This document shows, piece by piece, positions 1,173-38,287 of a stretch of DNA of 64,000 bases. Below the pieces are notes generated by a model, which saw nothing but the letters and a program-made list of their open reading frames with translations, ran no database searches and had not been told where the DNA came from. The position numbers were made by a program, and so were the translations under genes. Numbering within the stretch: position 1 is the stretch's first letter; each line of letters begins with the position of its first letter. This DNA comes from an uncultured Opitutaceae bacterium (GTDB lineage: Bacteria > Verrucomicrobiota > Verrucomicrobiia > Opitutales > Opitutaceae), in the NCBI GenBank assembly GCA_903862935.1, contig CAIOZY010000040.1, positions 62,001 through 126,000 on the forward strand, given 5' to 3'.

Positions 1173-1186
1173 GATTGTTCCTGGTG

Positions 1187-4144: not shown

Positions 4145-4857
4145 TTGGCCGGAGGAACGCTCTGGCTGGCAACCGGGACCGCGGTCTCCCGCTTGTCCAT
4201 GAACTTCCAGCCGCTGATGATGCCCGACAGGCCACCGTGGCCGTCGACGTAGTCGGTGTAGAACACCATGTAGACGTGGACGACCGTGAACAGGATGAAC
4301 AGCCAATTCGCGGCGTAGTGGAATGAGCGCAGCGTCTGCTCGCTGCCGAAGAGCGGCATCACCCAGCTGAACAGTCCGGGCATCCAGCCGTGGCTCATCG
4401 CGGCATACAGCCCGAATCCGCTGATGACCTGGAATAGCGCCAGCAGGAACAGGACCGCGTACGTGAACGACGAAACCGCGTTGTGCCCCAGGGGCTCTAT
4501 GGTCTCATCGCTCACCTGGAAGATCTCGATCTTGGCGACGCGGACCGCCTCCTTCCACTCCTTGGGCGTCAGCAGGACAAAGCTCCGCCAGCGGGCGAAC
4601 TTGTTTCCGACGAACGCCCAGTAGATCCGGAACACCAAGGCGACCACGAATGTGTAGGCCGCCACGAAGTGGGTGAACCGGACGATGCCGAACCAGTAGC
4701 CAAACGAGGCCTCGGTCGCCGTCATGTATCCCGGGGGGTGGGCTATCAGGTAGCCAGTCACCCCCAGCACGACGATGCAGGCCGCATTGATCCAATGGGT
4801 GAGGCGCACGGGGAGCTCCCACACGTACACCCGTATGAAGTTGCGCGGCTGATTCAT
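4141..4857 (-). CDS. hyaC: Ni/Fe-hydrogenase cytochrome b subunit
   Basis: This 238-residue di-heme cytochrome b of the HyaC/HupC/PhsC type anchors the uptake hydrogenase and passes electrons to quinone. Four membrane segments can be read: around LTHWINAACIVVLGVTGYLI, RFTHFVAAYTFVVALVFRIY, YAVLFLLALFQVISGFGLYA and NWLFILFTVVHVYMVFY. Histidines that could be heme ligands lie in LTHW, FTHF, FHYAANW and VVHVY. The start at 4857 lies 14 bases beyond the hyaB stop, and the stop is coupled to hyaD. Confidence 0.93.
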   Translation of the reverse strand: MNQPRNFIRVYVWELPVRLTHWINAACIVVLGVTGYLIAHPPGYMTATEASFGYWFGIVRFTHFVAAYTFVVALVFRIYWAFVGNKFARWRSFVLLTPKEWKEAVRVAKIEIFQVSDETIEPLGHNAVSSFTYAVLFLLALFQVISGFGLYAAMSHGWMPGLFSWVMPLFGSEQTLRSFHYAANWLFILFTVVHVYMVFYTDYVDGHGGLSGIISGWKFMDKRETAVPVASQSVPPAK

Positions 4858-4871
4858 GGAGAACCTCCGGT

Positions 4872-6596
4872 TCAGTGCACCGCCAGATCGCTGCGCCCGA
4901 TTTCCTTGTCGTCCTCGTAAAGGTGGACGGCGCAGGACAGGCACGGGTCGAACGAGTGGATGGTGCGGATGATCTCGAGGGGCTGCTTGGGATCGTGGAC
5001 CGGAGTTCCGATCAGGGACGCCTCGTAGGCGGACCGTTGACCCTTGGCGTCGCGAGGCGACGCGTTCCAGGTCGACGGGACCACGAGCTGGTAGTTGTCG
5101 ATCTTGCGGTCCTTGATGACGATCCAGTGGGCCAAGGCCCCACGGGGGGCCTCGGACGTGCCGACGCCGCGGGCCTCAGCAGGCCAGGTCGCCGGATCCC
5201 AGTTGTCGGTTGCGGCGGTGCGGGTGTCGCCGTCCTTGATCAGCTTCATCAGGCTCCCGTAGAAGTCCAAGTTCCACTGGGCAGTCAGGCGTGCCTCGAT
5301 GCCGCGGGCGGCCGTCCGACCGAGGGTTGAGAACAGCGCCGAGGCGGGCGCCTTGAGGGCGTCGAGGGCCTCGACGACCGCGGACTTGATCTCGTCCTGG
5401 CCTGAGGCGAAGCCGACCAGCATGCGGGCGAGCGGGCCCACCTCCATCGCATGACCCTTCCAGCGCGGCGTCTTCAGCCAGCTGTACTTCTTGTCGACGT
5501 CCAGGTGCTCGTACGGGGGCTTCGGGCCGCTGTACTTGAGGCGGGTCTCGCCCTTCCACGGGTGCAGGCCCTGCCCCGCGGCGACCGAGTACTCGTACCA
5601 GGAGCTGTCGATGAACTCCTCGATCCCATCCTGGGTGTCGCGGGGATCCACCGGCAGCACTTCCGTCAAATTCCGGCCGAGGATCGCGCCCCGCTTGAAC
5701 TTGTAACTGTCGAGGTTGTTGAACCCGTTCGTCGGCAGGTCGCCGTAGCACAGATAGTTCTCAAGTCCTCCGCCAATACCGGCCCAGTCCAGGTAGTACG
5801 GGGCGACGGCCAGCAGGTCGGGGTAGTAGACCTGCTCGACGAAGTCCTTGGCGTCCTTGAGGAGCTTGCCGACCATCGCCAGGCGCTCGGCATTGATGGC
5901 GTTCTCCTCGTCGAGGTTGATCGCGCACGGCATGCCGCCCACTAGGTAATTCGGGTGCGGGTTCTTGCCGCCGAAGATCGTGTGGACCTTGATGATCTCC
6001 TTCTGCCACTCCAAGGCCTCCAGGTAGTGGGCCACCCCGATCAGGTTGATCTCGGGCGGCAGCTTGAAGGCCGGATGACCCCAGTAGGCGTTGGCGAAGA
6101 TGCCCAGCTGTCCGCTGCTGACGAAGGCCGTGAGGCGCTTTTGCAGGTCGGAGAAGTATCCCGGCGAGCTCTTCGGCCAGTGCGAGATGCTCTGGGCGAT
6201 CCGGGAGGTTTCCTTCGGGTCGGCCTTCAGGGCGCTCACGACATCCACCCAGTCCAGCGCGTGCAGATGATAGAAGTGGATCACGTGGTCCTGCACGTTC
6301 TGCGTGCAGTACATGATGTTCCGGATCATCTCCGCGGCCGGCGGAATCTTGATCTTGAGGGCGTCCTCGACCGCCCGGACCGAGGCGAGGGCGTGCACCG
6401 TGGTGCACACGCCGCAGACGCGCTCGGTGAATGCCCAGGCGTCGCGGGGGTCGCGGCCCTTGAGGATGATCTCAAGTCCGCGCACCATCGTGCCCGCGCT
6501 CCAGGCGTCGACAATCTTCCCATCCTTGACCTCCGCCTCGATGCGCAGGTGCCCTTCGATGCGGGTGACGGGATCAACAACAATTCGTTCGCTCAT
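4872..6596 (-). CDS. hyaB: Uptake [NiFe] hydrogenase large subunit (group 1d type)
   Basis: This 574-residue catalytic subunit holds the NiFe(CN)2CO centre. The N-terminal L1 motif is RVCGVCTTVHA (Cys61, Cys64) and the C-terminal L2 motif is DPCLSCAVH (Cys552, Cys555, His558). A 16-residue tail follows His558 and would be cut by HyaD. All four nickel-binding Cys are present and none is replaced by selenocysteine. It starts in an ATGA overlap with hyaA. The high similarity in style to E. coli HyaB and the HyaA partner place it among membrane-bound, periplasm-facing H2-oxidising enzymes. Confidence 0.96.
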   Translation of the reverse strand: MSERIVVDPVTRIEGHLRIEAEVKDGKIVDAWSAGTMVRGLEIILKGRDPRDAWAFTERVCGVCTTVHALASVRAVEDALKIKIPPAAEMIRNIMYCTQNVQDHVIHFYHLHALDWVDVVSALKADPKETSRIAQSISHWPKSSPGYFSDLQKRLTAFVSSGQLGIFANAYWGHPAFKLPPEINLIGVAHYLEALEWQKEIIKVHTIFGGKNPHPNYLVGGMPCAINLDEENAINAERLAMVGKLLKDAKDFVEQVYYPDLLAVAPYYLDWAGIGGGLENYLCYGDLPTNGFNNLDSYKFKRGAILGRNLTEVLPVDPRDTQDGIEEFIDSSWYEYSVAAGQGLHPWKGETRLKYSGPKPPYEHLDVDKKYSWLKTPRWKGHAMEVGPLARMLVGFASGQDEIKSAVVEALDALKAPASALFSTLGRTAARGIEARLTAQWNLDFYGSLMKLIKDGDTRTAATDNWDPATWPAEARGVGTSEAPRGALAHWIVIKDRKIDNYQLVVPSTWNASPRDAKGQRSAYEASLIGTPVHDPKQPLEIIRTIHSFDPCLSCAVHLYEDDKEIGRSDLAVH

Positions 6597-7750
6597 GACG
6601 CACCTCCCTTGTCAGCTTCTTGGTTAGATTTTTCGGCGGCCTCGGCGTTCTCGCCGGGCTGCTCGCCGATCTCGTGGCGCTTGCGCACATTCGTCATGGC
6701 GGCGTGGACCGCCAAGCCCGCGACGGTGATGCCGCCGAGGGTCATGCCGATCTGGTCGGCGGTGGACTCGATGCCGAAGCCGGGGAAGTTGGCGATCCGC
6801 TGGTAGAACGGACCGTTGTCCCAGAACTGCGCCTCGGAGCATCCGATGCAGGGGTGCCCGGACTGGATCGGGTAGCTCGTCCCGTTGTTCCAGCGGATCA
6901 CGCCGCACGAGTTGTACGTTGTGGGGCCGCGGCAGCCCACCTTGTACAGGCAGTAGCCCTTCTTCGCGTTCTCGTCGTCGAAGGACTCGACGAACAGGCC
7001 CGCGTCGTAGTTGGGCCGGCGGTAGCAGGTGTCGTGGACCCGGCGCGAGTAGAACGCCTTCGGGCGTCCAAGATGGTCGAGCTGCGGGATCCGGTCGAAA
7101 GCGAGCAGGTGGACCAGGACGCCGGCCATGACCTCGGCGATCGGGGGGCAGCCCTGCACGTTGACGATGGGCTTGTCCTTGATGATCGCGTTGATCGGGG
7201 TGGCGCGGGTGGGGTTCGGGTTTGCGGCCTGGACACAGCCGGCGCAGGCGCAGTTGCCCCAGGCGATGATCGCTTTGGCGCCCGCGGCGACCTCGTGCAC
7301 GGTATCGACCGCGGACTTGCCGCCCACGACGCAGTAGACGCCGTCGGCTCCCAGCGGGACCGAGCCCTCGACGAGCATCAGGTACTCGCCCTTGTACTTG
7401 GTGATGGTGTCCTGGAGGATCTCCTCGGCCTGGTGTCCGGCGGCCGCCTGCAGGGTCTCCGTGTAGTCGAGCGACACCTTGTCGAGCAGGATGTCAGCGA
7501 CAATCGGATGGGAGGAGCGGATGAAGGACTCGCTGCAGCAGGTGCACTCCTGGAAGTGCATCCACACCACCGGGATCCGGCGACGGGTCTCCAGGGCCTT
7601 GGCAATCTGCGACACGCCTGTGTTCCGGAGGCCGAGGTAGGCGCTCATCCAGGCACAGAACTTCATGAAGTCGCGGCGGCTGACACCGCGGGAGACCATC
7701 TGCTCATAGATGGTCGGTGCACGCTTACTGATATCTACAGGCGCAATCAT
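6593..7750 (-). CDS. hyaA: Uptake [NiFe] hydrogenase small subunit with six-Cys proximal cluster site
   Basis: This 385-residue precursor has a twin-arginine signal (SRRDFMKF, residues 24-31) for folded co-export with HyaB. The proximal cluster region reads ECTCCSE, with Cys69, Cys71 and Cys72. Cys167 and Cys172 (in GNCACAGCVQAA) and Cys201 complete the six-Cys set that in the family builds the O2-protective [4Fe-3S] cluster. A further Cys169 sits between them. The medial and distal cluster motifs around HDTCYRR and GHPCIGCSE are intact. A C-terminal hydrophobic anchor (about residues 335-355) and a charged tail follow. An AAGGAG sequence precedes the start, at 11 bases spacing. Confidence 0.96.
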   Translation of the reverse strand: MIAPVDISKRAPTIYEQMVSRGVSRRDFMKFCAWMSAYLGLRNTGVSQIAKALETRRRIPVVWMHFQECTCCSESFIRSSHPIVADILLDKVSLDYTETLQAAAGHQAEEILQDTITKYKGEYLMLVEGSVPLGADGVYCVVGGKSAVDTVHEVAAGAKAIIAWGNCACAGCVQAANPNPTRATPINAIIKDKPIVNVQGCPPIAEVMAGVLVHLLAFDRIPQLDHLGRPKAFYSRRVHDTCYRRPNYDAGLFVESFDDENAKKGYCLYKVGCRGPTTYNSCGVIRWNNGTSYPIQSGHPCIGCSEAQFWDNGPFYQRIANFPGFGIESTADQIGMTLGGITVAGLAVHAAMTNVRKRHEIGEQPGENAEAAEKSNQEADKGGAS

Positions 7751-7929: not shown

Positions 7930-8643
7930 ATGGGAAAATACCGGAGGTTCCCTCCTGACATGAAACTGCGCTTCTCGATTATCGATGAACGGAATCCACT
8001 TCGCACGCGCTCGATCCTAGACCTGTGCGACTACCTAACGGAGAAGATGCTCGTCCCCCGCTTCGCCGCGAGCCGGGCGGAGTGGGACCGGCGATTCATG
8101 GATTTCTTCACCTTCGACAACACCTGCGACCCGCTGCAGCCCACCGGAACGATCCAGTTCACGGTTCCGCCGCTGTTCGCCGGGTGCGCGAGCTCCCTCG
8201 AGCAGGCGATCGTCGAGAAGCTCGGAAAATTGGGGATCAAGACCGGCCCATTCACACCGGTCCCGTCCGAGAGCCCCGGGGGCGCGCTGGTCCTCAGGTT
8301 CTCCGTCCTGGAGAACCCGACCGCCCTGCTCCAGCCCCCGGAGGTGAACATGAACACGACCCGAGGACGGGTTGTCCTGCGAGACCTGCTCGGCTATCAG
8401 CCGGCAAACCTGAGGTACCGGTTTTCCGCTGACGACGTGCTGCGCCGAATCGCCCAGGCAACCGACGAGAGGATTGCCGAGTGCACGGCGAGCCCCGTCC
8501 GGGACGCCCAGGGAGGGGTCAAGCGCGCTCCCAGTGTGGCCAGCATGCGGGCGGTCCGCCGGTGCCTGGAGGAGCTGCGCTCGTTCGCCGAATGGGCCAA
8601 GGCCCAGGGATTCCAGCAGCTCGAGGCAAGCGCTGCCTACTGA
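7930..8643 (+). CDS. Unrecognised protein in the hydrogenase island, divergent from hyaA
   Basis: A 237-residue soluble protein that I do not recognise. It has no signal peptide, no membrane segment and no obvious cofactor motif. Only two Cys are visible outside the first 50 residues (NTCDPL, FAGCAS), plus one in CTASPV and one in RRCLEEL. The first Met is at 7930; a second Met (residue 11, at 7960) begins MKLRFSIIDE and is an equally good start. It is transcribed away from hyaA across a 179-base gap, and its end overlaps by 7 bases the end of the convergent hydrogenase protease gene. Location between two hydrogenase operons suggests a regulatory or assembly role, but nothing in the sequence proves this. 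Confidence 0.75.
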   Translation: MGKYRRFPPDMKLRFSIIDERNPLRTRSILDLCDYLTEKMLVPRFAASRAEWDRRFMDFFTFDNTCDPLQPTGTIQFTVPPLFAGCASSLEQAIVEKLGKLGIKTGPFTPVPSESPGGALVLRFSVLENPTALLQPPEVNMNTTRGRVVLRDLLGYQPANLRYRFSADDVLRRIAQATDERIAECTASPVRDAQGGVKRAPSVASMRAVRRCLEELRSFAEWAKAQGFQQLEASAAY

Positions 8644-9146
8644 GGCCCAAACACGGGGGCGGGCCGGGCCAGGAATTCCCTTGCGCGGGCAGCCACGCGG
8701 ACTGCGGCAGGCGCCACGGCCCCGGCAACGCCCGGGGTAAGGGAAGTCCCTAAGGTGAAAGGATCGGCGACCTCGATCGCGAAGACCGCGACCTCACGTG
8801 GCATCTTCAATCCCAAGAGGCCACCGAGCGCGAGGGCGTCCCCCACCCCGACAAAATGCGGCGTCCTCGGCCCCTTGGACTCCCGGACCTGGGCCGCCGA
8901 AAACTCATGAATCTGTCCCGGCGGGGCGTTCCCGGTCTGGACCGAGTCGACCAGGACGAGCCCCTCCCGGCCCTCCATCTCGTCGAGAAGCGCTAGCCCC
9001 ATCTCTGTGGTCGCCCTGACCTCCACCTCGGGCTCGTTAGAAAGGGTCTCCCGCACGGCGGCGGCCACCCGAAGCCCTACCGCGTCGTCGGTCAGGACGT
9101 CGTTTCCGAGCCCGAGGACGAGGATCCTGGGGACAGGCCCGGCCAT
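8637..9146 (-). CDS. Second hydrogenase maturation protease, probably for MvhA
   Basis: A 169-residue HybD/HycI-family endopeptidase with the opening RILVLGLGNDVLTDDAVGLRV. At the usual Glu position of GNxLxxDE the sequence is DDAVG, an acidic variant. A second acidic site lies in VLVDSVQTG. It is the last gene of hdrCBA-mvhDGA, 11 bases after the mvhA stop, so the MvhA C-terminal tail is the likely substrate. The start ATG at 9146 was preferred to a longer reading that would overlap mvhA. Confidence 0.9.
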   Translation of the reverse strand: MAGPVPRILVLGLGNDVLTDDAVGLRVAAAVRETLSNEPEVEVRATTEMGLALLDEMEGREGLVLVDSVQTGNAPPGQIHEFSAAQVRESKGPRTPHFVGVGDALALGGLLGLKMPREVAVFAIEVADPFTLGTSLTPGVAGAVAPAAVRVAARAREFLARPAPVFGPQ

Positions 9147-9157
9147 GGCGGGGTGGC

Positions 9158-10687
9158 CTACTCGCGGACGAGCTCGCGCAGGAGCCCGCCGCGCTGGTCG
9201 TGGATCCTGACCTTGAGCGGGGTGTGGCCCGGGAGCGAATGCGTCGCGCAGCCTAGGCAAGGATCGTAGGCCCGGAAGGCCATCTCCACCTTGTTGAGGA
9301 GCCCCTCCGTGACCCGGCCCTCGTGGATCAGGCCCTTTGCGGCCCGCTCCACGCTCATCGCGATCCGGGCGGCGTTGTGGCCGGTCGCCACGATCAGGTT
9401 GGCCATCGTGACCAGACCCCGCGCATCCGTCTGGTAGTGGTGAATCAGCGTCCCGCGGGGAGCCTCGACCGCCCCTGCGCCCTCGGAGGGCACTTCCGAC
9501 GGGATGCGGCGCACCTTCGGGTCTGTGATCTCCGGGTCGGCGACGAGTTCGACCATGCGCTCGGCCGCGTAGATCATCTCGATCACCCGGGCCCAGTGGG
9601 TGGCGAGCGTGTGGTGGACCGGGCGGCCGCCCAGGATCTTGAAGAACTCCTCCCGGGCCGCCTGGGCGTTCGGGGTGGCCATGGCGTCAGCCGCGTTGAT
9701 CCGGGCGAGCGGCCCCACCGCGTAGACAGGGGTGTCCGGCCCCTCGACAAAGCCGTTCCATCCGCGGCTTTTCAGGAATGTGAACTTCATGTAGCTCCAG
9801 GGTTCGACATGCTCGGCCAGGAACTCTCGGTAGCGCGCCACGGGGAACTTGCACACCTCGCGCCCGAGGCAGTCGACGACCCTAAGGTCCCCGTCGTAGA
9901 AATTGACCCGGTTTTCCGCGTCGACCATCCCCATGTAGCAGGTCTTGTGGGTGAACGCATCCGAGTGGATCATCTCCACGTACTCGGTGCTCCCGAGGAC
10001 GATCTTGCGGAAGATCTCCAAGGTCCACAGGGCGAAGTCCAGCCCATCGGCCGCCAGCTGGCGAAACTTCGGGAGCTCCTGCGGATCGAGCGCCTTGCTC
10101 ACACCCCCGGGTAGGCCCAGGACGGGATGGACCACCTTGCCCCCAAAGTACGCGATCAGCTCCCTCAGGCGCCGGCGGGTGTCGATCACCCGGCGGCCCG
10201 CCTCAAGGCCCACCTTGCCGATCACCCCCACGATGTTGCGCTCGGCCGGCGGGGCCTCCGGGCCCACGATGAAGTCCGGACCGCCCAGCACGTAGAAGTG
10301 CAGCGCGTGGTCCTCCAGCATGAAGGTGTGGTAGACCAGCCCCCGGATCTTGCGACCCGCACCGGTGGGCTCGACCCGGTAGAGATCGTCCAGGGCCTTC
10401 GTTGAGGCCATGTGGTGGGCCGTCGGGCAGACCCCGCAGATGCGGCTGGTGATCTGCGGCATGTCCTCGGCCGGGCGGCCCCGGCAGAACACCTCGAAGC
10501 CCCTCAGCTCGGGAACCTGCAGGTACGCGCGCTCCACCTCTCCCTTCGGGTCGAGGAAGATGTCGATCTTGCCGTGCCCCTCCAGCCGAGTGACCGGGTC
10601 AATGATCACGTGGCGCTTCGCGGCCTGGTAGGCTGCGTTGGCCCGGATGTTGCCGGGGTTGAAGGCCTTCGCGAGAACTTCGTCCAT
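9158..10687 (-). CDS. mvhA: Group 3c-type [NiFe] hydrogenase large subunit (MvhA-like)
   Basis: This 509-residue catalytic subunit has the L1 motif RICGVCPTAHH (Cys84, Cys87) and the L2 motif DPCLGCATH (Cys477, Cys480, His483). A 26-residue cleavable tail follows His483. The sequence is clearly different from HyaB and lacks the long inserts of group 1 enzymes, which suits a cytoplasmic enzyme. With MvhG and MvhD it would oxidise H2 and feed HdrA. It starts 12 bases after the mvhG stop. Confidence 0.93.
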   Translation of the reverse strand: MDEVLAKAFNPGNIRANAAYQAAKRHVIIDPVTRLEGHGKIDIFLDPKGEVERAYLQVPELRGFEVFCRGRPAEDMPQITSRICGVCPTAHHMASTKALDDLYRVEPTGAGRKIRGLVYHTFMLEDHALHFYVLGGPDFIVGPEAPPAERNIVGVIGKVGLEAGRRVIDTRRRLRELIAYFGGKVVHPVLGLPGGVSKALDPQELPKFRQLAADGLDFALWTLEIFRKIVLGSTEYVEMIHSDAFTHKTCYMGMVDAENRVNFYDGDLRVVDCLGREVCKFPVARYREFLAEHVEPWSYMKFTFLKSRGWNGFVEGPDTPVYAVGPLARINAADAMATPNAQAAREEFFKILGGRPVHHTLATHWARVIEMIYAAERMVELVADPEITDPKVRRIPSEVPSEGAGAVEAPRGTLIHHYQTDARGLVTMANLIVATGHNAARIAMSVERAAKGLIHEGRVTEGLLNKVEMAFRAYDPCLGCATHSLPGHTPLKVRIHDQRGGLLRELVRE

Positions 10688-10699
10688 GGGAAAGGGACC

Positions 10700-11674
10700 C
10701 TACCCTCCGTTGAGATCGACCCGGCGCCTCAGGATGCTCTTCGCCATGCCGTACCGATAGAAGGTGCCGACCGGATCGGGAATGCCCTCGAGCACTCGGT
10801 CGATGTCCGGCGCCTCCTTCGCCTCCAGGTTCGCACACAGGGACGATAGGATCTTGGCCCCCTGGTCGCGGACCCGAGAGGTCGGGCCAAAGCATCCCGT
10901 GCACGGCATGTTGCCGGCAGGGCACTGCGCCCCGCAGCCGCCCCGAGTTGCCGGTCCGAGGCAAACGACCCCCTGGGCGAGCAGGCACTTTTCGGGGTCG
11001 AGTAGCGCCTGGTGGGGCCGGCGGAACTGGGCGAAGGAAAGGTCGGCGGGCTTGCCCACCTTGCGCGGGCACTCCTCGCACAGGGCCGTGTCCGGGGCGA
11101 GTACCGAGCCCTTCGGGGGCGGCGCGTCACCCAGGAGGGCGGCCAGCGCCTTCTTGGTGATGAGCGGAGTCGGCGGGCACCCCGGGATGAAGTAGTCCAC
11201 GTCGACCACCTGGTCCAGGGAGCGCACGACGCGGCTCTGTTCCGGCAGGTGGGTCTTGCGGCCCTCCTCCTCGAAGGAGAGCTGCGGGCGGGTCCGCGGC
11301 CCATTCACAACCGAGGGCGCATCCTCGTAGTTGAACTTGAGGATCTCCTCCCGAGCGAACCCGTTGGCCAGGCTCGGGATCCCGCCCATGCAGGCGCAGG
11401 ACCCGTACGCCACGAGTACCCGGCTCTTGCGGCGAAGCAGGCGCGCCATCTGCTCCTGCTCGGTGCTCCGGATGGCGCCGTTGAGCAGCGTCGCGAAAAT
11501 GGCCCCGTCCTCCATGGCCTCCACGTCGGCGTACTTGAAGTCCATCGCCACGGGCCACAGGACGATATCGAGCTTCTCGACGACCCCGAGGATGTCCTCG
11601 GCGAGGTCCACGACCGTCTCCTCGCATCCCCCGCAGGAGGCGCACCAGTAGAAGGCAACCTTCGGCTTAGGCAT
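10700..11674 (-). CDS. mvhG: Group 3c-type hydrogenase small subunit (MvhG-like)
   Basis: A 324-residue small subunit with no Tat signal. Proximal cluster ligands start in FYWCASCGGCEET (Cys11, Cys14, Cys17). GSCACMGG and GCPPTP give the remaining ligands. The C-terminal half is cysteine-rich (CEECPRK, CLLAQGVVCLGP, GGCGAQCPAG, CTGCFGP), enough for two more [4Fe-4S] clusters, as in MvhG/FrhG. It carries electrons from MvhA to MvhD. The first 8 bases overlap the end of mvhD. Confidence 0.93.
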   Translation of the reverse strand: MPKPKVAFYWCASCGGCEETVVDLAEDILGVVEKLDIVLWPVAMDFKYADVEAMEDGAIFATLLNGAIRSTEQEQMARLLRRKSRVLVAYGSCACMGGIPSLANGFAREEILKFNYEDAPSVVNGPRTRPQLSFEEEGRKTHLPEQSRVVRSLDQVVDVDYFIPGCPPTPLITKKALAALLGDAPPPKGSVLAPDTALCEECPRKVGKPADLSFAQFRRPHQALLDPEKCLLAQGVVCLGPATRGGCGAQCPAGNMPCTGCFGPTSRVRDQGAKILSSLCANLEAKEAPDIDRVLEGIPDPVGTFYRYGMAKSILRRRVDLNGG

Positions 11675-12179
11675 GAACGGCCTCCCGTTCCGCGGTCAGC
11701 TCCGCGTCCCATCCCTTGGCCTTGCCCGGCAGGTTGAGTGGGCCCAGAGCCGAGAGCTGGGCGGACATCTCGTTGATGACGAGCTTCACCTTGTCTCCCT
11801 CGGCGGCCGAAATCCACTCCAGGCGAACGCGCTCGGGCTCGATCCCCATGTCGGAGAGCATCCGCCGCAGCAGCCGGAATCGCCGGAGCATCTTGTAGTT
11901 GCCCTCGACGTAATGGCAGTCGCCGGGATGGCAGCCGCCGATCAGAACGCCGTCGGCCCCCTTGCTCAGGGCGTCCAAGATGAACTGGGGGTCGACCCGC
12001 CCCGAGCACATCAGGCGGATCACGCGCACGTTCGGCGAGTACTTCAGGCGCGACACCCCGGCCAGGTCGGCCGCCGTGTAGGTGCACCAGTTGCAGAAGA
12101 ACGCCACGATCCGGGGCGTCCACTCGGCCGCGGGCGGCGTCCCAGTTCCGGCGGCTGCCGCCTTGTCAGTTGGGTTCAT
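11667..12179 (-). CDS. mvhD: MvhD-type [2Fe-2S] adapter between hydrogenase and HdrA
   Basis: A 170-residue MvhD-family protein. The hallmark FFCNWCTYTAADLAG lies near residue 30, and further Cys occur in LMCSGRVDP and GGCHPGDCHY, which together bind a [2Fe-2S] cluster. It is the electron bridge between MvhAG and HdrA in the methanogen complex. The start ATG at 12179 lies inside the last 14 bases of hdrA, a tight translational coupling. It is a separate gene here, not fused to HdrA. Confidence 0.93.
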   Translation of the reverse strand: MNPTDKAAAAGTGTPPAAEWTPRIVAFFCNWCTYTAADLAGVSRLKYSPNVRVIRLMCSGRVDPQFILDALSKGADGVLIGGCHPGDCHYVEGNYKMLRRFRLLRRMLSDMGIEPERVRLEWISAAEGDKVKLVINEMSAQLSALGPLNLPGKAKGWDAELTAEREAVHA

Positions 12180-14175
12180 CGGCCAGCACTCCTTGGATTT
12201 CGCCGAACACCTCCTCGTCATCGAACAGGTTCTGTATGATCGATCCCGACGGGCACGAGCCGACGCAGGTCCCGCATCCCTTGCACAGCGCCTCGTTGAT
12301 GACCGCCTTCTGCGTTGCGGAGTCGAAGGCGATGGCGGTGTAGGGGCACAGTGGGATGCACGACTTGCACCCGCTGCAGTCGGCCAGTATCCGCGCCGTG
12401 TTCGGCTCCTGGTCGATGTGGCCCCGGTCGATCAGGGCCATGGCCTCCGCGGCGGCCGCGCCCGCCTGGGCGACAGTGTCGGGGATGTCGCGCGGGCCCT
12501 GGCAGCAGCCCGCGATGAAGACCCCGTCGGTGTAGGTGTTGACGGGGGCGAGCTTGGGGTGGCGCTCCAGGAAGAATCCCTCGGTCCCGCAGCTCATGTT
12601 GAACATGCGGCGGACCGACTGCGCGTCGGAGTGCGGCTCCAGGCCCGTCGACAAGACGACCATGTCGACCGGGATCCGCCGGACGAAACCTGCCAGGGTG
12701 TCCTCAACACGGATCACGAGCTTGCCCTCCTCCTCGGGGGTCATCGCCCAGTCGGTCACCTCGCCCACGCGGCCGCGGATGAAGTGCACCCCCTCCTCGT
12801 TCAGCTTGTCGTAGAACTCCTCGTAGCCCTTCCCGGGCGCCCGGATGTCGATGTAGAAATTGTACACCTCGGCCCCGGAGTGCTCCTTGAGGAGATGGGC
12901 GAGCTTCATCGAGTACATGCAGCACACCCTCGAGCACCAGCGGTTGGTCTTTCGGTCGCGCGAGCCGACGCAGTGGATGATCGCGATGGCGTTCGGGTGC
13001 CTTCCATCGCGCAGGACAACCTCGCCGCTCGTGGGCCCGGAGGCGTTCACGAGCCTCTCGGCCTCGAGGGCCGTGTAGACGTTCGGATAGGTGCCGTAGC
13101 CGTACTGTGGAACCCGCTTCACGTCGAAGGGCTGGAAGCCCGTCGCGACGATGATCGTGCCGACCTTGATCTCCTTCAGCTCCTCCTTCTGGTTGAAGTC
13201 GATCGCCTTGCGCTCCGCACAGGCCTCGACGCAGGTCTTCTTGCACTTGTCCGTCAGGACCCCCCGCTTGAAGTTCAGGCAAACCTCCGGGTCGATCAGG
13301 ACCACCTGCGGGGTGGCTTGCGGGAACGGGATGTGGATCGGCTTCCTCTTTCCCAGACCCTCGTTGAACTCGTCGGGGAACATCGGCTTCTTGTAGACGC
13401 AGCTGTCGATGCACTCCTGGCAGCCGACGCACAGCTCCTCGATCACGTACCGGGGCTTGCGTCTGACCGTGACGGTGTAATTGCCGACATAGCCGTCGGT
13501 CTTAACCACCTCGGAGTAGCTCCACAGGGTGATGTTCGGGTGGGACCGCACGGCCGACATCTTGGGTGTCAGGATGCAGGCAGCGCAGTCCAGGGTCGGG
13601 AAGGTCTTGTCGAACTTCGCCATGTGGCCGCCGATCGACGGCTCCCGTTCGACCAGGTAGACCTTCTTCCCCGCCGAGGCCAGGGTGAGCGCCGCGTGGA
13701 TGCCGGCGATGCCACCGCCGACCACCAGAACGTCCGGGTGGATCGGCACCCGCTTCATCTCCAGGGGCTGATGGTGGGCCACGCGGCGTATCCCCGCTCG
13801 CGCGAGGGCCTTGGCCTTCTCGGTGGCGAGTCTGCGGTCCGTGTGCACCCAGGAGTCGTGCTCCCGGATGTTGACCATGTGGAAGCAGTAGGGGTTCAGC
13901 CCCCCGGCCTCGGTCGCGCTGCGGAACGTGTGCTCGTGCAAGAGCGGCGAGCACGAGGCGACGACGACATGGCTCAGACCCAGTTCGGCGATGTCGCGCT
14001 TGATCAGCTCCTGGCCCGGGTCGGAGCACAGGTACTTGTAGTCGCGGGAGACGGCGACGTTGGGCAGGGTCGCCGCGTAGGCCGCCACCGCCGGGCAGTC
14101 CACCATGCTCGCGATGTTGTGCCCGCAGTGGCAGACGTAGAAGCCGATGCGGACACCGTTGCGCGGCTCGGGCAT
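12166..14175 (-). CDS. hdrA: HdrA, FAD-containing electron-bifurcating subunit
   Basis: This 669-residue protein has an N-terminal region with CHCGHN, and then an FAD/NAD-type Rossmann motif VLVVGGGIAGIHAAL. Ferredoxin-type [4Fe-4S] sites read CVGCQECIDSC, CSGCKSCIPLCP and CKGCGTCVGSCP. In known complexes the FAD splits H2-derived electron pairs between ferredoxin and the HdrB disulfide site. The start ATG at 14175 is 5 bases after the hdrB stop. A longer in-frame reading upstream is hdrB shadow. Length and domain order match methanogen HdrA; no NADH-binding fusion (as in Flox-Hdr) is present. Confidence 0.95.
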   Translation of the reverse strand: MPEPRNGVRIGFYVCHCGHNIASMVDCPAVAAYAATLPNVAVSRDYKYLCSDPGQELIKRDIAELGLSHVVVASCSPLLHEHTFRSATEAGGLNPYCFHMVNIREHDSWVHTDRRLATEKAKALARAGIRRVAHHQPLEMKRVPIHPDVLVVGGGIAGIHAALTLASAGKKVYLVEREPSIGGHMAKFDKTFPTLDCAACILTPKMSAVRSHPNITLWSYSEVVKTDGYVGNYTVTVRRKPRYVIEELCVGCQECIDSCVYKKPMFPDEFNEGLGKRKPIHIPFPQATPQVVLIDPEVCLNFKRGVLTDKCKKTCVEACAERKAIDFNQKEELKEIKVGTIIVATGFQPFDVKRVPQYGYGTYPNVYTALEAERLVNASGPTSGEVVLRDGRHPNAIAIIHCVGSRDRKTNRWCSRVCCMYSMKLAHLLKEHSGAEVYNFYIDIRAPGKGYEEFYDKLNEEGVHFIRGRVGEVTDWAMTPEEEGKLVIRVEDTLAGFVRRIPVDMVVLSTGLEPHSDAQSVRRMFNMSCGTEGFFLERHPKLAPVNTYTDGVFIAGCCQGPRDIPDTVAQAGAAAAEAMALIDRGHIDQEPNTARILADCSGCKSCIPLCPYTAIAFDSATQKAVINEALCKGCGTCVGSCPSGSIIQNLFDDEEVFGEIQGVLADEPN

Positions 14176-14180
14176 GGTCT

Positions 14181-15077
14181 TCAGGCGGTCACAGCCTCTT
14201 TCGAGGCGGGGGTCGGCACTGGCTCCGGGCGCCAGTCGAGCCGAATTGCAGAGCGGTTCAGCCCCAGCTCCTTCTCGGGCAGGCCGAAGGCGAGCCCCAT
14301 CAGCTGGGTAAAGTAGACGGTCGGCACCCGCACCGGGCCGTACTGCGAGGCAACCTTCGCGTGGTAGGCGTCGAGGTTGAACTGGCACAGCGGGCACACC
14401 GTTGCCAGGCAGTCGGCACCGCGCTTGCGGGCCTCGTTGAGCAGGATGTAGACCATGCGCATCCCCGCCGCGGGAACGGTGCCGGTGAGGCTCCCTCCGC
14501 AGCACTTGGTCTTAAGCGGATAGCGTACGACGGTGGCCCCGAGGGCCTCCAGGAGCTTGTCCATCGCCGTCGGATTGTACTGGTCGTCGAAGGTCGCGTA
14601 CGGCCGGACGATCTGGCAGCCGTAGTACGGGGCGACCTTCAGGCCCTTTAGGGGGCGCACGACCTTCTGGCGGACCGCCTCCAGCCCGACGTCAGTGAGC
14701 AGCACGTCGAGCGGGTGCCTCACCGCCGTGTCCCCGTCGTACTTGAGCCCGATCGCGGCGAGCGCGTGGTCCATCGTCTTCTTGATCGCCGGGTAGTCGT
14801 GGAAGTAGTGCTTGGCCTTGTTGAGCACCAGGTAGCACGCGGCGCACGGGGCCATAAGCTGCTGCTGGCCGGTCTTCTCCGCCAGGGCCAGGTTCCGGGC
14901 AGCAAGCACGCAGGCCTTGACCTCGTCGACCGCCATGTAGGCGGTGGCTCCGCAGCAGTTCCAGTCGTCGAGCTCGACGAGCTCCACGCCCAGGTGCTTC
15001 ATGACGGGCAGCAGGGACTCCTCGTAGGCGCGGCCGAGGCCTTTGAGCGAGCAGCCGGGAAAGTAGGCGAGTTTCAT
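14181..15077 (-). CDS. hdrB: HdrB, CCG-domain disulfide reductase subunit
   Basis: A 298-residue HdrB with two complete cysteine-rich CCG domains. The first is Cys9-X31-Cys41-Cys42-X35-Cys78-X2-Cys81. The second starts at Cys in YYGCQIVRP and continues through KCCGGS to CPLC. In methanogens these domains hold two non-cubane [4Fe-4S] clusters that reduce the CoM-S-S-CoB disulfide. All ligands being present implies a functional disulfide-reducing site, but the substrate in this probable bacterium is unknown. The start overlaps the hdrC stop (ATGA at 15074-15077). Confidence 0.94.
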   Translation of the reverse strand: MKLAYFPGCSLKGLGRAYEESLLPVMKHLGVELVELDDWNCCGATAYMAVDEVKACVLAARNLALAEKTGQQQLMAPCAACYLVLNKAKHYFHDYPAIKKTMDHALAAIGLKYDGDTAVRHPLDVLLTDVGLEAVRQKVVRPLKGLKVAPYYGCQIVRPYATFDDQYNPTAMDKLLEALGATVVRYPLKTKCCGGSLTGTVPAAGMRMVYILLNEARKRGADCLATVCPLCQFNLDAYHAKVASQYGPVRVPTVYFTQLMGLAFGLPEKELGLNRSAIRLDWRPEPVPTPASKEAVTA

Positions 15078-15757
15078 GGGTGCTTTCCGTTTCCGGCGTC
15101 GATCGCGGCGAGCATCCGGTCGACGTCTCCCTTGTGGCGGATCCTCTCTGTCCAAAGCGTGAACCTGCCCGTGCGCATCAGATCCAGGCCGAGCCTCCAG
15201 TTACCCAGGGCACCCAGCCAGTCGGTCTTCAAGAAAAGCCGGATCACGAGCACCAGCTCGGTGATCCGCCCGTGCTTTCGGACCATCTCGGAAAACTCCC
15301 GGGCGAGGACCGGAATCGGGAAACGCCGGACGTAGACCCCCTCCCGCAGCGCCCGCTGCTTGAGCTCGTACATGATGTCGGTGATGCGGATCTCCTGCGG
15401 GCACTCCACGGTGCAGGCGTAGCAGGAGGCGCACAGCCAGATCGTGTGGCTGCGCAGGACCTCGTTCTTGAAGTCGGCCCGCGCCAGCGCCATCACCTGG
15501 CGCGGCGTGTAGTCCATGTAGATGCTCAGCGGGCACACTCCCGAGCAGGTGCCGCACTGGATGCATCCCTCGAGCTTCTCGCATCCGGGGACCTTCATCA
15601 GGTCCCGCCCGAAGCCGGGAACCCGGTCCGACTCCAGCTTGATCGTCCGCTTGATCTCCATCGCCGGATCGCCCCGGAGGACGGGCTTGGGGTTAGCTTT
15701 CGCTCCTGCGGGCCTGGGGTTGGTCCGCTCGGCAGCGGTTGCGGGAGGAGCAGTCAT
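15074..15757 (-). CDS. hdrC: HdrC, iron-sulfur subunit linking HdrA and HdrB
   Basis: A 227-residue protein with two [4Fe-4S] motifs, CIQCGTCSGVCP and CASCYACTVECP, and a C-terminal helical region. It is soluble: there is no cytochrome b (HdrE) partner, so this is the cytosolic HdrABC form. It is the first gene of the seven-gene operon hdrCBA-mvhDGA-protease. A second possible start (Met33, at 15661, reading MEIKRTIKLE) would remove a proline- and alanine-rich leader; neither start has a clear ribosome-binding site. Confidence 0.92.
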   Translation of the reverse strand: MTAPPATAAERTNPRPAGAKANPKPVLRGDPAMEIKRTIKLESDRVPGFGRDLMKVPGCEKLEGCIQCGTCSGVCPLSIYMDYTPRQVMALARADFKNEVLRSHTIWLCASCYACTVECPQEIRITDIMYELKQRALREGVYVRRFPIPVLAREFSEMVRKHGRITELVLVIRLFLKTDWLGALGNWRLGLDLMRTGRFTLWTERIRHKGDVDRMLAAIDAGNGKHP

Positions 15758-15927: not shown

Positions 15928-16272
15928 ATGCACGAAATCGGAATCATGTCCTCGGCGATGGACAGTGTCCTGGCCCAGGCCCGCGCAAACAGCGCAAGCC
16001 GCGTCCACCGGATCGTACTGCGGATAGGCACCCTCTCCGGCGTCGACCCCGACGCCCTGCGGTTCGCCTTCGACGTCGTCGCCCAAGGGACGCCCGCGGA
16101 GGGGGCCTCCCTGGAGATCGAGACGGTCCAGGCCCGGGCGCGGTGCCCCGACTGCGACCTTGAGTTCGGGGTGGCCTCGGGCTTCATCTTCACCTGCCCG
16201 AAGTGCGAACGCCTGTGCAGCGAGCTGCGCCAGGGCCGCGAGCTGGAGCTCGCGCGGATCGAGATTTCCTAA
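15928..16272 (+). CDS. hypA: HypA, nickel insertion metallochaperone
   Basis: A 114-residue HypA with the N-terminal MHEIGIMSS (His2 is the nickel ligand in the family) and a zinc-binding pair CPDC and CPKC. Together with HypB it delivers nickel to hydrogenase large-subunit precursors. It is first in hypABFCD and is transcribed divergently from hdrC. Twenty bases separate it from hypB. Confidence 0.95.
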   Translation: MHEIGIMSSAMDSVLAQARANSASRVHRIVLRIGTLSGVDPDALRFAFDVVAQGTPAEGASLEIETVQARARCPDCDLEFGVASGFIFTCPKCERLCSELRQGRELELARIEIS

Positions 16273-16292
16273 AGACCCAACCACCCACTCCT

Positions 16293-17039
16293 ATGCCCCC
16301 GGAAACTGACGCCGAAGAGTCCCCCTCGTTTCAGATCAGGCCGATGAGCCCCCCTCCCGCCGCGCAGGATCCGAAGGGTTCGCTGCGCTCGCTCGAGCTC
16401 AAGGCGTCGCTGCTGGACAAAAACGACCGCTTGGCGGAGCGAAACCGCCGGTACTTCAGGAGCCGGGGGCTGCTGGCCCTGAACCTGGTCTCCTCACCCG
16501 GCGCGGGTAAGACGACGCTGCTGGAGCGCACGCTCGACGAGTTTGGCCTTCAGGTCCGGTGCGCGGTGCTGGTCGGGGACCTGGAGACCGACAACGACGC
16601 CCGCCGGCTCCACCGGCCCCACGCGCCGGTGGCGCAGATCACCACAGGCGAGGCCTGTCACCTTGAGGCGGACATGGTCGCCCGGGGCGTCGAGGCGATC
16701 GACCTCGCGGGGGTCAAGGTCCTCTTCATTGAAAATGTCGGCAATCTGGTCTGCCCGGCATCCTTCGACCTGGGCGAAGAGGTCCGGGTCGTGCTGCTTT
16801 CGTGCACCGAGGGCGAGGACAAGCCGCTCAAGTATCCGCCTATCTTCAAATCGGCCCACGTCGTCCTCCTGACCAAGGTCGACGCCGCGGCTGTCCTGGG
16901 CTTCGACGTCGAGGTGGCCTCGAGGAATATCCAGCGAATCGCCCCGCAGGCGCGCCTGATCCGGCTTTCGGCCCGCAGCGGCGAGGGCATGAGCGAGTGG
17001 TACGAACTTATTCGCTCCCTAGGTCCCAAGGCAATCTAG
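16293..17039 (+). CDS. hypB: HypB, nickel-delivery GTPase
   Basis: A 248-residue SIMIBI-class GTPase. The P-loop is SSPGAGKTT (about residues 67-75), and downstream GDLETDNDARRL and NVGNLVCP are typical HypB signatures. The N-terminus is proline-rich and has no histidine-rich nickel-storage stretch. The ATG at 16293 was chosen because the longer reading would overlap hypA. It ends 2 bases before hypF. Confidence 0.95.
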   Translation: MPPETDAEESPSFQIRPMSPPPAAQDPKGSLRSLELKASLLDKNDRLAERNRRYFRSRGLLALNLVSSPGAGKTTLLERTLDEFGLQVRCAVLVGDLETDNDARRLHRPHAPVAQITTGEACHLEADMVARGVEAIDLAGVKVLFIENVGNLVCPASFDLGEEVRVVLLSCTEGEDKPLKYPPIFKSAHVVLLTKVDAAAVLGFDVEVASRNIQRIAPQARLIRLSARSGEGMSEWYELIRSLGPKAI

Positions 17040-17041
17040 CG

Positions 17042-19411
17042 ATGGCGGCCTCCCCCGGATCCCCGAAGCGCGATGCCGACCAGGCCGACGTGCTGGTCCG
17101 GGTCCGCGGGATCGTGCAGGGGGTGGGCTTCCGTCCTTTCGTCCACCGCGTGGCCTCGCGCATGCGGCTCCGGGGGTGGGTTCGAAACGACACCCAGGGG
17201 GTTCTGATCCGGGCCTCGGGCGAGGAAGAAGCCGTCCAGGCACTCGTCCGCTCGCTCGAGTCCGAGGCTCCGCCGGCCGCGCGGGTCCTATCCGTGGAGC
17301 GGGCAGACTTCGGGTCCCCGGTGCCGGACTCGATGGCGGCCTATGGGATGCCGGCCGGTCCCGCCGGGGACGGGTTCTCCATCTTGCCGAGCGAATCGGG
17401 AGGCATGGTGGTTGAGGCGGCCGCCCCTCCCGACCTGGCGCTGTGCACGGACTGCCGCCGTGAGCTTCTGGACCCGGCCGATCGGCGGTTCCGCTACCCG
17501 TTCATCAACTGCACCCAGTGCGGCCCCCGCTACTCCATCCTTGAACGGCTCCCCTACGACCGGCCCCGGACGACGATGCGGGCATTCCGCATGTGCCCGG
17601 CCTGCCAGACCGAGTACGACGACCCGGCCAGCCGGCGCTTCCACGCCCAGCCCAACGCGTGCCCGGTTTGCGGCCCGCAGGCCTTCCTGGTCGACGAGGC
17701 CGGGCAGGAGTCCGCGGGCGAGGAGGGACTCGAGCGCACCGCGGCGCTGCTCTCGGCTGGCGGCATCATCGCCGTCAAGGGTATCGGCGGCTACCACCTG
17801 ATCGCCGACGCCGGGAGCGAGGGGGCCGTCGCCGAGCTGCGCCGTCGCAAGCACCGCGAGGAAAAACCCCTGGCGGTCATGTTTCCCTCGATGGAGGCGA
17901 TCCGAGAGGCGGCCGAGGTTTCCCCGGAGGCCGAGGCTCTCCTCCTGTCACCCGCGGCCCCGATCGTCCTTCTGAGGCGCAAGCCGAAGGCGAGGCTCGC
18001 GCTCGGCATTGCCCCGGACAACCCCTGGGTCGGGGCGCTGCTCCCGTACGCGCCGCTTCAGGTCCTGCTTCTGGAGGCTTTTGGAAAGCCAGTCGTGGCA
18101 ACCAGCGCCAACCTCTCCGACGAACCGCTGTGCACGGACAACCACGAGGCTCAGCGCCGGCTCTCGGGCATCGCCGACGCGTTCTACGAGCACAACCGCC
18201 GGATCGCCCATCCGGTCGACGACTCGGTCGTGCGTCTGTGCGCAGACGGCCCGATCCGGCTTCGCCGGGCCCGCGGATATGCACCAATTCCCCTGATGCT
18301 GCCCGGCCGGGTCGGTGGATGCCTGCTGTGCGTGGGGGCCCAGATGAAGTCGACCCTCTCCGTCGCCGCGGGCGACCGGGTTGTCGTCAGCCCCCACATC
18401 GGCGACTTGGACGGCCCGTCGACCCGGACGGTCTTCCAGCGGACAGCGGACGTTCTGGGAGCGCTCCAAGGGTCGGACTTCACCGCGGTTGCCTGCGACC
18501 GGCACCCGGACTATGCCTCCACGCGGTATGCCGAGGCGACCGGGCTTCCCCGGGTTGCAATCCAGCACCACCTGGCGCACGTCCTGTCGTGCCTGCTGGA
18601 GAACAGGCACCCGGCCGACGGCGTCCTGGGGGTGTCCTGGGACGGGACGGGCTACGGCGAGGACGGCACGGTGTGGGGAGGCGAGTTCCTGCTGCTCAGG
18701 CAGAACACGGCCCTGCGCTTCGCCCGGGTCCGGCCCTTCCGCCTTGCGGGCGGCGAGGCCGCGATCCGCGACGGGCGGCGCTCGGCCCTCGGGCTCGTGC
18801 ACGCCGCCGCCCCGGGGCTCTTCGACGCAGCCGCGACGGCTCTCAGGGTGTCTCCGGCTGACGCCGCGACTCTCAGGACCATGCTCGCCCGCGGGCTCAA
18901 CTCTCCGGTGACCTCAAGCGCAGGCCGGCTCTTCGACGCGGTGGGGGCCCTCCTTGGACTGGGCGGGCGCAACCAGTTCGAGGGGCAGACCCCGCTTGCG
19001 GTCGAGGCCGCGGCCGTCCGGGACACGGGCGGATCCCGGATCCTGCCGCTGCCGCTGCGCGCCGTGCCCAAGGGAGGCAGTGCCGTCTGGGAGCTCGACT
19101 GGGAGCCCCTGCTCGACGAGCTCCTCGGATCCAAGACCCGGGTGACTGAGGCCCCGGCCCTTGCGGCCGGCTTCCACCGCGGGCTGGCCCGCGCGATTGC
19201 AGCCGTCGCCCGGGAGGCGGGGGTCGGCACGGTGGCCCTGACCGGCGGCTGCTTCCAGAACGCCCTCCTTTCGGACCTGGCGAGCTCGGCCCTGCGCAAG
19301 GACGGGTTCACCGTGCTGGCCCACAGGGAGCTGCCCCCCAACGACGGAGGAATCTCCGCTGGCCAGGCGCTCGGGGCGCTGTTAAGCCTCTCCTGCGTCC
19401 AAATGCCCTGA
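17042..19411 (+). CDS. hypF: HypF, carbamoyltransferase for NiFe cyanide ligand synthesis
   Basis: A 789-residue protein with the full HypF domain order. An N-terminal acylphosphatase domain (RGIVQGVGFRPFVHR) is followed by two zinc fingers (CTDCRREL/CTQCGPRY and CPACQTEY/CPVCGPQ). Next come the YrdC/Sua5 domain and a Kae1-like domain with the HHLAHVLSC metal site. It transfers the carbamoyl group from carbamoyl phosphate to the C-terminal Cys of HypE. ATG at 17042 is right after the hypB stop. Confidence 0.96.
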   Translation: MAASPGSPKRDADQADVLVRVRGIVQGVGFRPFVHRVASRMRLRGWVRNDTQGVLIRASGEEEAVQALVRSLESEAPPAARVLSVERADFGSPVPDSMAAYGMPAGPAGDGFSILPSESGGMVVEAAAPPDLALCTDCRRELLDPADRRFRYPFINCTQCGPRYSILERLPYDRPRTTMRAFRMCPACQTEYDDPASRRFHAQPNACPVCGPQAFLVDEAGQESAGEEGLERTAALLSAGGIIAVKGIGGYHLIADAGSEGAVAELRRRKHREEKPLAVMFPSMEAIREAAEVSPEAEALLLSPAAPIVLLRRKPKARLALGIAPDNPWVGALLPYAPLQVLLLEAFGKPVVATSANLSDEPLCTDNHEAQRRLSGIADAFYEHNRRIAHPVDDSVVRLCADGPIRLRRARGYAPIPLMLPGRVGGCLLCVGAQMKSTLSVAAGDRVVVSPHIGDLDGPSTRTVFQRTADVLGALQGSDFTAVACDRHPDYASTRYAEATGLPRVAIQHHLAHVLSCLLENRHPADGVLGVSWDGTGYGEDGTVWGGEFLLLRQNTALRFARVRPFRLAGGEAAIRDGRRSALGLVHAAAPGLFDAAATALRVSPADAATLRTMLARGLNSPVTSSAGRLFDAVGALLGLGGRNQFEGQTPLAVEAAAVRDTGGSRILPLPLRAVPKGGSAVWELDWEPLLDELLGSKTRVTEAPALAAGFHRGLARAIAAVAREAGVGTVALTGGCFQNALLSDLASSALRKDGFTVLAHRELPPNDGGISAGQALGALLSLSCVQMP

Positions 19412-19451
19412 TCGGCAGTTGGAACTCAATAAACCACTCCCCCTTTCTCCC

Positions 19452-19721
19452 ATGTGCCTCGCCGTTCCCGGAAAAGTCCTTGATATCCAGGGAGATGACC
19501 CCCTGCTTCGCAGCGGCCGCGTCAGCTTCGCCGGCGTCGTAAAGAATGTGAGTCTCACCTGTGTGCCCGAGGCCAAGGTGGGCGACTACGTGCTGGTCCA
19601 CGTCGGCCTGGCGATCAGCGTCGTCGACGAAAAGGAGGCCGAGGAGACCTTCCGCTACCTGAAGGAGATGGGCGACCTGGACGGGCTGGAGTCGGCTCCG
19701 GCCTCCCCCACCCCGCCATGA
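19452..19721 (+). CDS. hypC: HypC, Fe(CN)2CO scaffold chaperone
   Basis: An 89-residue HypC beginning MCLAVPGKV, where Cys2 is the essential iron ligand. The ATG at 19452 is fixed by this motif; an earlier in-frame Met would bury Cys2. The stop overlaps the hypD start (ATGA, 19718-19721), matching the HypC-HypD complex that assembles the Fe(CN)2CO unit. Only one hypC copy is seen for three hydrogenases. Confidence 0.95.

Positions 19722-34682: not shown

Positions 34683-38287
<3,605 letters not shown>

Follow-up and report, generated by a model that had tools for sequence, protein, structure and literature searches.

The operon and its subunits

We have studied a putative hydrogenase-heterodisulfide reductase operon of an uncultured Opitutaceae bacterium (assembly GCA_903862935.1). 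The operon lies in a stretch of 64,000 nucleotides of contig CAIOZY010000040.1 (positions 62,001 to 126,000), which we call the window and whose numbering is used here. The genes hdrC-hdrB-hdrA-mvhD-mvhG-mvhA and a gene for a maturation protease occupy positions 8637-15757 of the minus strand, with adjacent genes overlapping or no more than about 12 bases apart. An initial annotation, made from the sequence alone, had described six subunits and a protease in one tight operon at this place. Profile and structure matches confirm this, and those of HdrA, HdrB and MvhA at the level of structure are far beyond chance. The genes of the operon are as follows.

15074-15757, minus strand: hdrC; TIGR03290 at 82 bits (cut-off 160); two four-cysteine cluster motifs; relay from HdrA to HdrB
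14181-15077, minus strand: hdrB; PF02754 in two stretches (two CCG domains); 5odc_B at E = 1.2e-43; 10 of 10 ligand cysteines; start codon inferred from the 5odc_B alignment; site of the non-cubane clusters, at which a disulfide would be cleaved
12166-14175, minus strand: hdrA; NF040770 at 827 bits (cut-off 1100), profile positions 1-643 of 777; 8rvu_a at E = 6.3e-206; subunit for bifurcation at flavin adenine dinucleotide (FAD)
11667-12221, minus strand: mvhD; PF02662 at E = 9e-56; matches positions 645-774 of the HdrA2 profile; [2Fe-2S] linker
10700-11674, minus strand: mvhG; NF045875 at E = 2.3e-57, 194 of 450 bits; hydrogenase small subunit
9158-10687, minus strand: mvhA; NF041785 at E = 4.2e-107, 358 of 800 bits; ICGVCPTAH and AYDPCLGCATH; [NiFe] hydrogenase large subunit
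8637-9146, minus strand: hydrogenase maturation protease; TIGR00072 at 95 bits (cut-off 47); start codon inferred

The features that had been pointed out in HdrB and HdrA are clearly present. HdrB has both CCG domains with their full complement of cluster cysteines. HdrA carries the dinucleotide motif GGGIAG, and of its four four-cysteine motifs one is unusually spaced; it aligns over nearly its full length with the solved HdrA 8rvu_a. With HdrC and the two complete non-cubane sites of HdrB, this FAD subunit makes up the set by which a bifurcating HdrABC is recognized. The metal ligands of MvhA are complete (C84/C87/C477/C480), and the protein carries a C-terminal extension. It matches 5odc_F with E = 9.5e-100, and slightly better 7t2r_D, the large subunit of the bifurcating enzyme NiFe-HydABCSL (E = 1.2e-112). 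Its sequences RICGVCPTAHH and AYDPCLGCATH are the L1 (ICGxCxxxH) and L2 (AYDPCxxCATH) motifs of group 3c, which are used in PMC6085437 to delineate the bifurcating hydrogenases of this group, and mvhA shares a genome with mvhG, mvhD and hdrABC as expected for that assignment. The five cysteines of the MvhD domain and those of MvhG are taken from the sequence alone. The gene set is thus complete, and the bifurcation that had been thought possible is plausible.

The best profile for HdrA is HdrA2, with 827 bits; the two remaining HdrA models give 608 and 547 bits. Since MvhD fits the C-terminal part of this same profile, HdrA and MvhD look like a split form of HdrA2. The equivalog cut-offs for the methanogen proteins VhuA, HdrA, HdrB and HdrC were all missed (358/800, 608/1400, 184/345 and 82/160 bits, respectively), where the HdrA equivalog models seem longer than the split HdrA found here. 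HdrB scores about equally with SdhE of methylmenaquinol:fumarate reductase (194 bits) and with HdrB (184 bits), both below cut-off. The operon shares with the HdrABC-MvhADG of hydrogenotrophic methanogens (5odc, 8rvu) the six subunits, the HdrB and MvhA ligands and the motifs of the FAD subunit. It differs in its HdrA2-like HdrA, in the residues beside the HdrB clusters (see below), in a host that lacks ComA, and in having all the genes in one operon, which in methanogens is often not the case (PMC6085437). The description of the complex as methanogen-type was therefore too narrow, given the HdrA2-like HdrA, the scores of MvhA and HdrB far below the equivalog cut-offs and the altered surroundings of the HdrB clusters.

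Next to the protease gene, on the plus strand (7930-8643), is an open reading frame (ORF) of 237 residues. The protease is accompanied by such an ORF in L034, L094 and L066 too, with 62, 61 and 39% identity. The host ORF matched no Pfam or NCBIfam family, and its AlphaFold model (mean pLDDT 80.5) had no match in the PDB at E ≤ 0.001.

Related operons and exchange of modules

The host genome (G000) is of 3.35 Mb and 95.55% complete, with no 16S rRNA gene found in the assembly; G002 belongs to the same genus and G021 to the same family. MvhA was found at a level of at least 69% identity in six of 57 relatives, host included, and the core genes are present in two genomes of the same genus and three of the same family. 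Of 288 sampled genomes of the phylum, eight (again counting the host) have an MvhA with at least 49% identity, while the remaining matches, at 42% or below, were taken for HoxH-like proteins. Scanning a single genome of each species yielded 357 pattern matches. A relative at E ≤ 1e-3 is encoded by 318 of these, other group 3 hydrogenases perhaps among them, and the 80 best loci (at least 64% identity) were kept. Verrucomicrobiota is the name attached to 37 of these 80, and 13 are called just 'bacterium'; Elusimicrobia, Acidobacteria, Sumerlaeota, Armatimonadota, Ignavibacteria and others are also represented. In trees of MvhA (relatives of the host MvhA plus one HoxH) and HdrA, the host sequences fall within mostly verrucomicrobial clades. 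This agrees with the verrucomicrobial host that had been supposed, now placed in the Opitutaceae, and gives no indication of an archaeal contig.

Archaeal contamination or a misassembled contig would have nothing in its favor beyond the methanogen-like names of the genes. The core in genomes of the same genus and family and the positions of MvhA and HdrA in their trees rule out an archaeal origin; hydrogenases of bacterial type also adjoin the operon. We regard the probability of such an artifact as negligible.

Bacterial sets of Mvh or group 3c hydrogenase with Hdr have been described (PMC6085437, PMC8092238, PMC8542988, PMC2702500), and 26% of the Mvh-encoding complete genomes in PMC6085437 are bacterial. 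The sets of Sumerlaeota (PMC8092238), Cloacimonadota (PMC8542988) and Desulfobacterium (PMC2702500) share the link between Mvh and Hdr with the operon studied here. For the Sumerlaeota set, the synthesis of coenzyme M (CoM) is given as absent in PMC8092238, a gap in which it resembles our host. The host differs from these bacteria as a member of the Opitutaceae with a complete dsr cluster in a genome in which AprA was not found (see below). Earlier mentions of such operons in Opitutaceae may exist. The operon is thus a typical bacterial member of an enzyme kind already known, whose relatives are widespread in bacteria, rather than a rarity. The presumed bifurcating H2:ferredoxin/disulfide complex is spread over many bacterial groups. 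What surprises is less its existence here than the exchangeable outlet and the concrete, testable acceptor that the host offers.

The loci were divided into two types. Type I was defined by the finding of HdrB and of no EtfD-like gene near mvhA; L040, L081 and L053 were left out as lying on the same contigs as L028, L031 and L032. Of the 53 type I relatives, 48 have the order hdrC-hdrB-hdrA-mvhD-mvhG-mvhA, and the vicinity of the type I operons yielded no Etf-type gene. Type II comprises 18 distinct loci in which hdrA and mvhDGA are joined not directly by hdrCB but by etfB, etfA and the genes of two further proteins, one TfrB-like and the other an EtfD-like membrane protein, of 669 residues in L028. 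The type II loci are L028 (50-8617), L038, L039, L043, L044, L045, L047, L048, L049, L054, L062, L068, L073, L076, L084, L088, L089 and L095. A distinct hdrB2 is present in five of the 18, and several others end too soon to tell. Five type II loci are ordered mvhDGA-TfrB-etfBA-EtfD-hdrA, with no hdrB within the stretch examined. EtfD is an Etf:menaquinone oxidoreductase related to HdrBC (PMC13083937); an EtfD-like protein is encoded in the type II operons and not in that of the host. We found no account of an Mvh-HdrA-Etf-EtfD operon in the literature searched, which is no proof of absence.

The type labels were set before any tree was made, and 11 loci of unresolved architecture were dropped from the counts of label changes. 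On quick maximum-likelihood trees, made without bootstraps and with neither root nor direction inferred, the minimum number of changes between type I and type II was 7 for MvhA, 7 for MvhG, 2 for MvhD and 1 for HdrA. The row sets differ between these trees, which exclude sequences of HdrA below 400, MvhG below 250 and MvhD below 110 residues. On a common set of 71 rows, outside of which lies L058 (type I by its HdrB2 match alone), there were 7 changes for MvhA and 1 for HdrA, compared with 15 to 18 and 14 to 18, respectively, among the ten label shuffles listed for each. Removal of the Bacteroidota/Ignavibacteria group left 6 changes for MvhA, 5 for MvhG and 1 for HdrA. An MvhA topology constrained to keep type II as a single clade was rejected (p-AU 3e-59), in a test chosen once the tree had been seen.

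The few changes for HdrA compared with the many for MvhA and MvhG indicate that the bifurcating HdrA stays with its outlet and that it is the hydrogenase that is swapped. The break may fall between MvhD and MvhG, a tentative placement because MvhD is short and 63 of its 72 rows are labelled. We offer as a speculative proposal that HdrA, probably with MvhD, could be an exchangeable bifurcation cartridge matched to a high-potential outlet. MvhAG would then plug either into HdrA-HdrBC, with a disulfide or DsrC as outlet as in the host, or into a sister HdrA with EtfBA, EtfD-like and TfrB-like proteins, in Verrucomicrobiota and their neighbors. If so, the type II complex would oxidize H2 and generate reduced ferredoxin, driven by the reduction of menaquinone. 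Besides the disulfide route, the exchange of modules points to an outlet through Etf and menaquinone, and it suggests that H2 may supply low-potential electrons in bacteria that are not methanogens.

Two long-branched hdrA frames, those of L071 (1128 residues) and L108 (1145 residues), appear to be fused or double HdrAs.

HdrB and the electron acceptor

The chemistry to be expected of the complex depends on HdrB. Each of the ten cluster ligands is identical in all 50 type I HdrBs of sufficient length for alignment (host included, fragments L067, L080 and L090 excluded) and in all six such HdrB2s. Among these ligands are the bridging cysteines Cys81 and Cys234 (5odc numbering). In Hdr the substrate displaces these two cysteines; EtfD, which has other residues at their positions, is regarded as a wire for electrons (PMC13083937). 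In type II, the last CCG motif of both the EtfD-like and the TfrB-like protein lacks its second cysteine in all 18 loci (CPKD and CPYE, each in 18 of 18), which makes the contrast with HdrB informative. We therefore consider it quite likely that HdrB is a true disulfide, or persulfide, reductase.

The residues next to the clusters are nearly uniform in the 50 bacterial HdrBs, and many differ from those of three archaeal HdrBs. In 5odc numbering, H150 is replaced by Y in 50 sequences, H154 by Q in 47, K157 by R in 50, R201 by T in 48 and H259 by Y in 49, in an alignment that has gaps near 195-201. Since the ligands are identical and their neighbors are not, we read the bacterial HdrB as having the same chemistry and a different substrate from its archaeal counterpart.

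As had been expected for such a bacterium, a search of the genome for CoM synthesis found no ComA (PF02679), although controls matched in M. jannaschii and B. subtilis; other routes to CoM, and coenzyme B, were outside this search. CoM is therefore unlikely. The genome does provide another possible substrate. On contig 10 (35289-45288; L114 5289-15288), dsrA, dsrB, dsrC, dsrM, dsrK, dsrJ, dsrO and dsrP lie in one cluster. DsrA scores 328 bits, below its cut-off of 393, and DsrB, DsrM, DsrK, DsrJ, DsrO and DsrP are above theirs. The cluster also holds a protein like CoA-disulfide reductase, below cut-off. A family search found a single DsrC in the genome. Its C-terminus, GACKLAGLPKPTGCI, has the form Cys-X10-Cys(-Ile), with both redox cysteines present. 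The physiological disulfide had been left open in the initial annotation, which stands in general; in the host, a two-cysteine DsrC together with DsrAB and DsrMKJOP is an obvious candidate. We tentatively regard DsrC as the best candidate for the disulfide of HdrB in this strain. Direct interaction of DsrC with FlxABCD-HdrABC has reportedly been found in Desulfovibrio, to go by the title of a 2023 paper. The host operon shares HdrABC, with DsrC as proposed partner, with the FlxABCD-HdrABC of sulfate reducers (titles cited in PMC10553843), and differs in that its electrons would come from H2 via MvhADG.

We favor the reading, which we think rather probable, that the operon encodes a soluble H2:ferredoxin/disulfide oxidoreductase working like MvhADG-HdrABC. 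DsrC is the most likely disulfide in the host, and for this part taken alone we see somewhat less than even odds. H2 would be oxidized at the NiFe site of MvhA, and the electrons would pass through MvhG and the [2Fe-2S] cluster of MvhD to the FAD of HdrA. Here they would be split, one going to ferredoxin and one via HdrC to the two non-cubane clusters of HdrB. These would cut a disulfide, in the host most likely the disulfide or trisulfide of DsrC, so that electrons from H2 would be fed into sulfite reduction while reduced ferredoxin is made. The formation of the complex, its direction and stoichiometry, the reduction of ferredoxin and the DsrC step are all predictions from the genes.

Several observations weigh against DsrC. 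The dsr cluster and the operon are on different contigs. The tetranucleotide composition of the dsr stretch does count in its favor, with a correlation to the operon contig of 0.97-0.98, the same as that between chunks of the operon contig itself; since same-genus relatives reach 0.94-0.95, this excludes far contamination only. AprA was not found in the genome, a negative without proper positive control as no control genome exceeded the AprA cut-off; sulfite rather than sulfate is thus the likely substrate, and sulfate an unlikely source. Moreover, the reduction of DsrC does not require HdrB, because DsrMKJOP is able to carry it out with menaquinol. DsrC is also rare among carriers of the operon. 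Of 48 other type I genomes searched, 3 encode a two-cysteine DsrC (their records all carry the names Acidobacteria or Terriglobia) and 4 a one-cysteine homologue; neither was detected in the remaining 41. Among the 57 relatives, DsrC is present only in the host and in G027, which is without such an MvhA, and thus in one of six MvhA carriers. In the phylum sample, DsrA was found in two of the 288 genomes, by a search that gave no match in any control genome, and DsrA and MvhA occur together in the host only. Since only 3 of those 48 genomes have a two-cysteine DsrC and the five carriers besides the host have none, DsrC is evidently not what keeps the operon, and as a general acceptor it is ruled out by this rarity. 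The same distribution makes the question of the acceptor testable in the host, which pairs the complex with a two-cysteine DsrC where its relatives have the complex without DsrC.

Repeated DsrC-like domains without paired C-terminal cysteines were seen in L123 and L125 (genome of L112) and in L124 and L126 (genome of L071). The genomes of L112 and L071 also carry a two-cysteine DsrC.

The absence of DsrC from 41 of the 48 genomes and from five of the six carriers among the relatives can be read in another way. The chemistry could be the same and the substrate of HdrB a more widely shared disulfide, of a small thiol or a housekeeping protein, in the host too, so that its DsrC is coincidental. 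The near-uniform residues beside the bacterial clusters, unlike those of the three archaeal HdrBs, fit this explanation. So does the lack of a candidate acceptor gene that recurs beside type I operons: no recurrent acceptor or accessory gene was recognized among 437 flanking ORFs by what is a weak method using longest frames, and the two clusters present in at least four loci were one HypE-like and one of minus-strand frames. On the other hand, we know of no such shared thiol in these bacteria, and the absence of DsrC is soft because the assemblies are incomplete. We regard a shared disulfide as possible, and well short of probable.

The remaining explanations alter the direction of electron flow or its end point. 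The complex might work mainly in reverse in a fermenting cell, confurcating electrons from a thiol and from ferredoxin reduced by pyruvate:ferredoxin oxidoreductase (PFOR) to H2. A PFOR is encoded in the window, and as other outlets for ferredoxin the genome showed no RnfC above cut-off and no CdhC. Against this, the neighboring hydrogenases of group 1 and Hox type suggest that H2 is also taken up, direction is not readable from sequence, and ferredoxin outlets such as nitrogenase and Nfn were outside the search; we consider the reverse reaction unlikely. Alternatively HdrB might be just a wire, passing high-potential electrons to a quinone or Etf partner. Type II operons, which join MvhADG and HdrA to EtfBA, EtfD-like and TfrB-like proteins, suggest such a route, and the score of HdrB with SdhE is as high as that with HdrB. 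However, both bridging cysteines are kept in HdrB and the type I operons have no Etf-type gene nearby, and a role as a wire is improbable.

The surrounding hydrogenase island

The operon sits in a hydrogenase island, with group 1 type and Hox-type hydrogenases to the left and hyp genes to the right. The surrounding features in the window are as follows.

1-3356, minus strand: hoxE, hoxF, hoxU and hoxY; HoxF by PF01512 (E = 3.1e-49) and PF10589, the rest by eye
3623-4306, minus strand: maturation protease, and 4141-4944, minus strand: cytochrome b561-type subunit; PF01292, PF01750 and TIGR00072
4872-7750, minus strand: group 1 type [NiFe] hydrogenase; large subunit 4872-6596, small subunit 6593-7750
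15928-20821, plus strand: hypA, hypB, hypF, hypC and hypD; ORFs named by eye, with no family search
22073-23479, minus strand: hypE-like; PF00586 and PF02769; name inferred
34679-38287, minus strand: PFOR; PF01855 (E = 2.2e-76), PF01558 and PF10371; possible ferredoxin partner

The large subunit of the group 1 type hydrogenase matches NF007550 with E = 1.1e-209 (698 of 1101 bits), and its small subunit was named by eye. PFOR lies about 19 kb to the right of the operon. RnfC matched only below cut-off in the genome, and CdhC of carbon monoxide dehydrogenase/acetyl-CoA synthase was absent in a search whose control worked. A genome search with PF02754 for a second HdrB or HdrD listed just a GlcF-like protein, beside GlcD- and GlcE-like genes on contig 36 (names by eye); this search was not exhaustive, because the DsrK-like protein of contig 10 was unlisted. 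As the initial annotation had it, no flx genes were seen beside the operon by eye, an inspection without a genome-wide search.

The hoxEFUY stretch is cut by the window edge, and a hoxH-like gene is located just to its left (G000:C40:60466-61905; 37% identity to MvhA). Near the Hox genes, also left of the window, a multihaem cytochrome, a ferredoxin-type protein and an NrfD-type membrane protein are encoded in a row (L025 10150-13094), a possible quinone-linked respiratory module. Genes resembling those of the cobalt/nickel transporter CbiMQO, identified by eye, stand beside the hoxH-like gene (L025 13634-15940).

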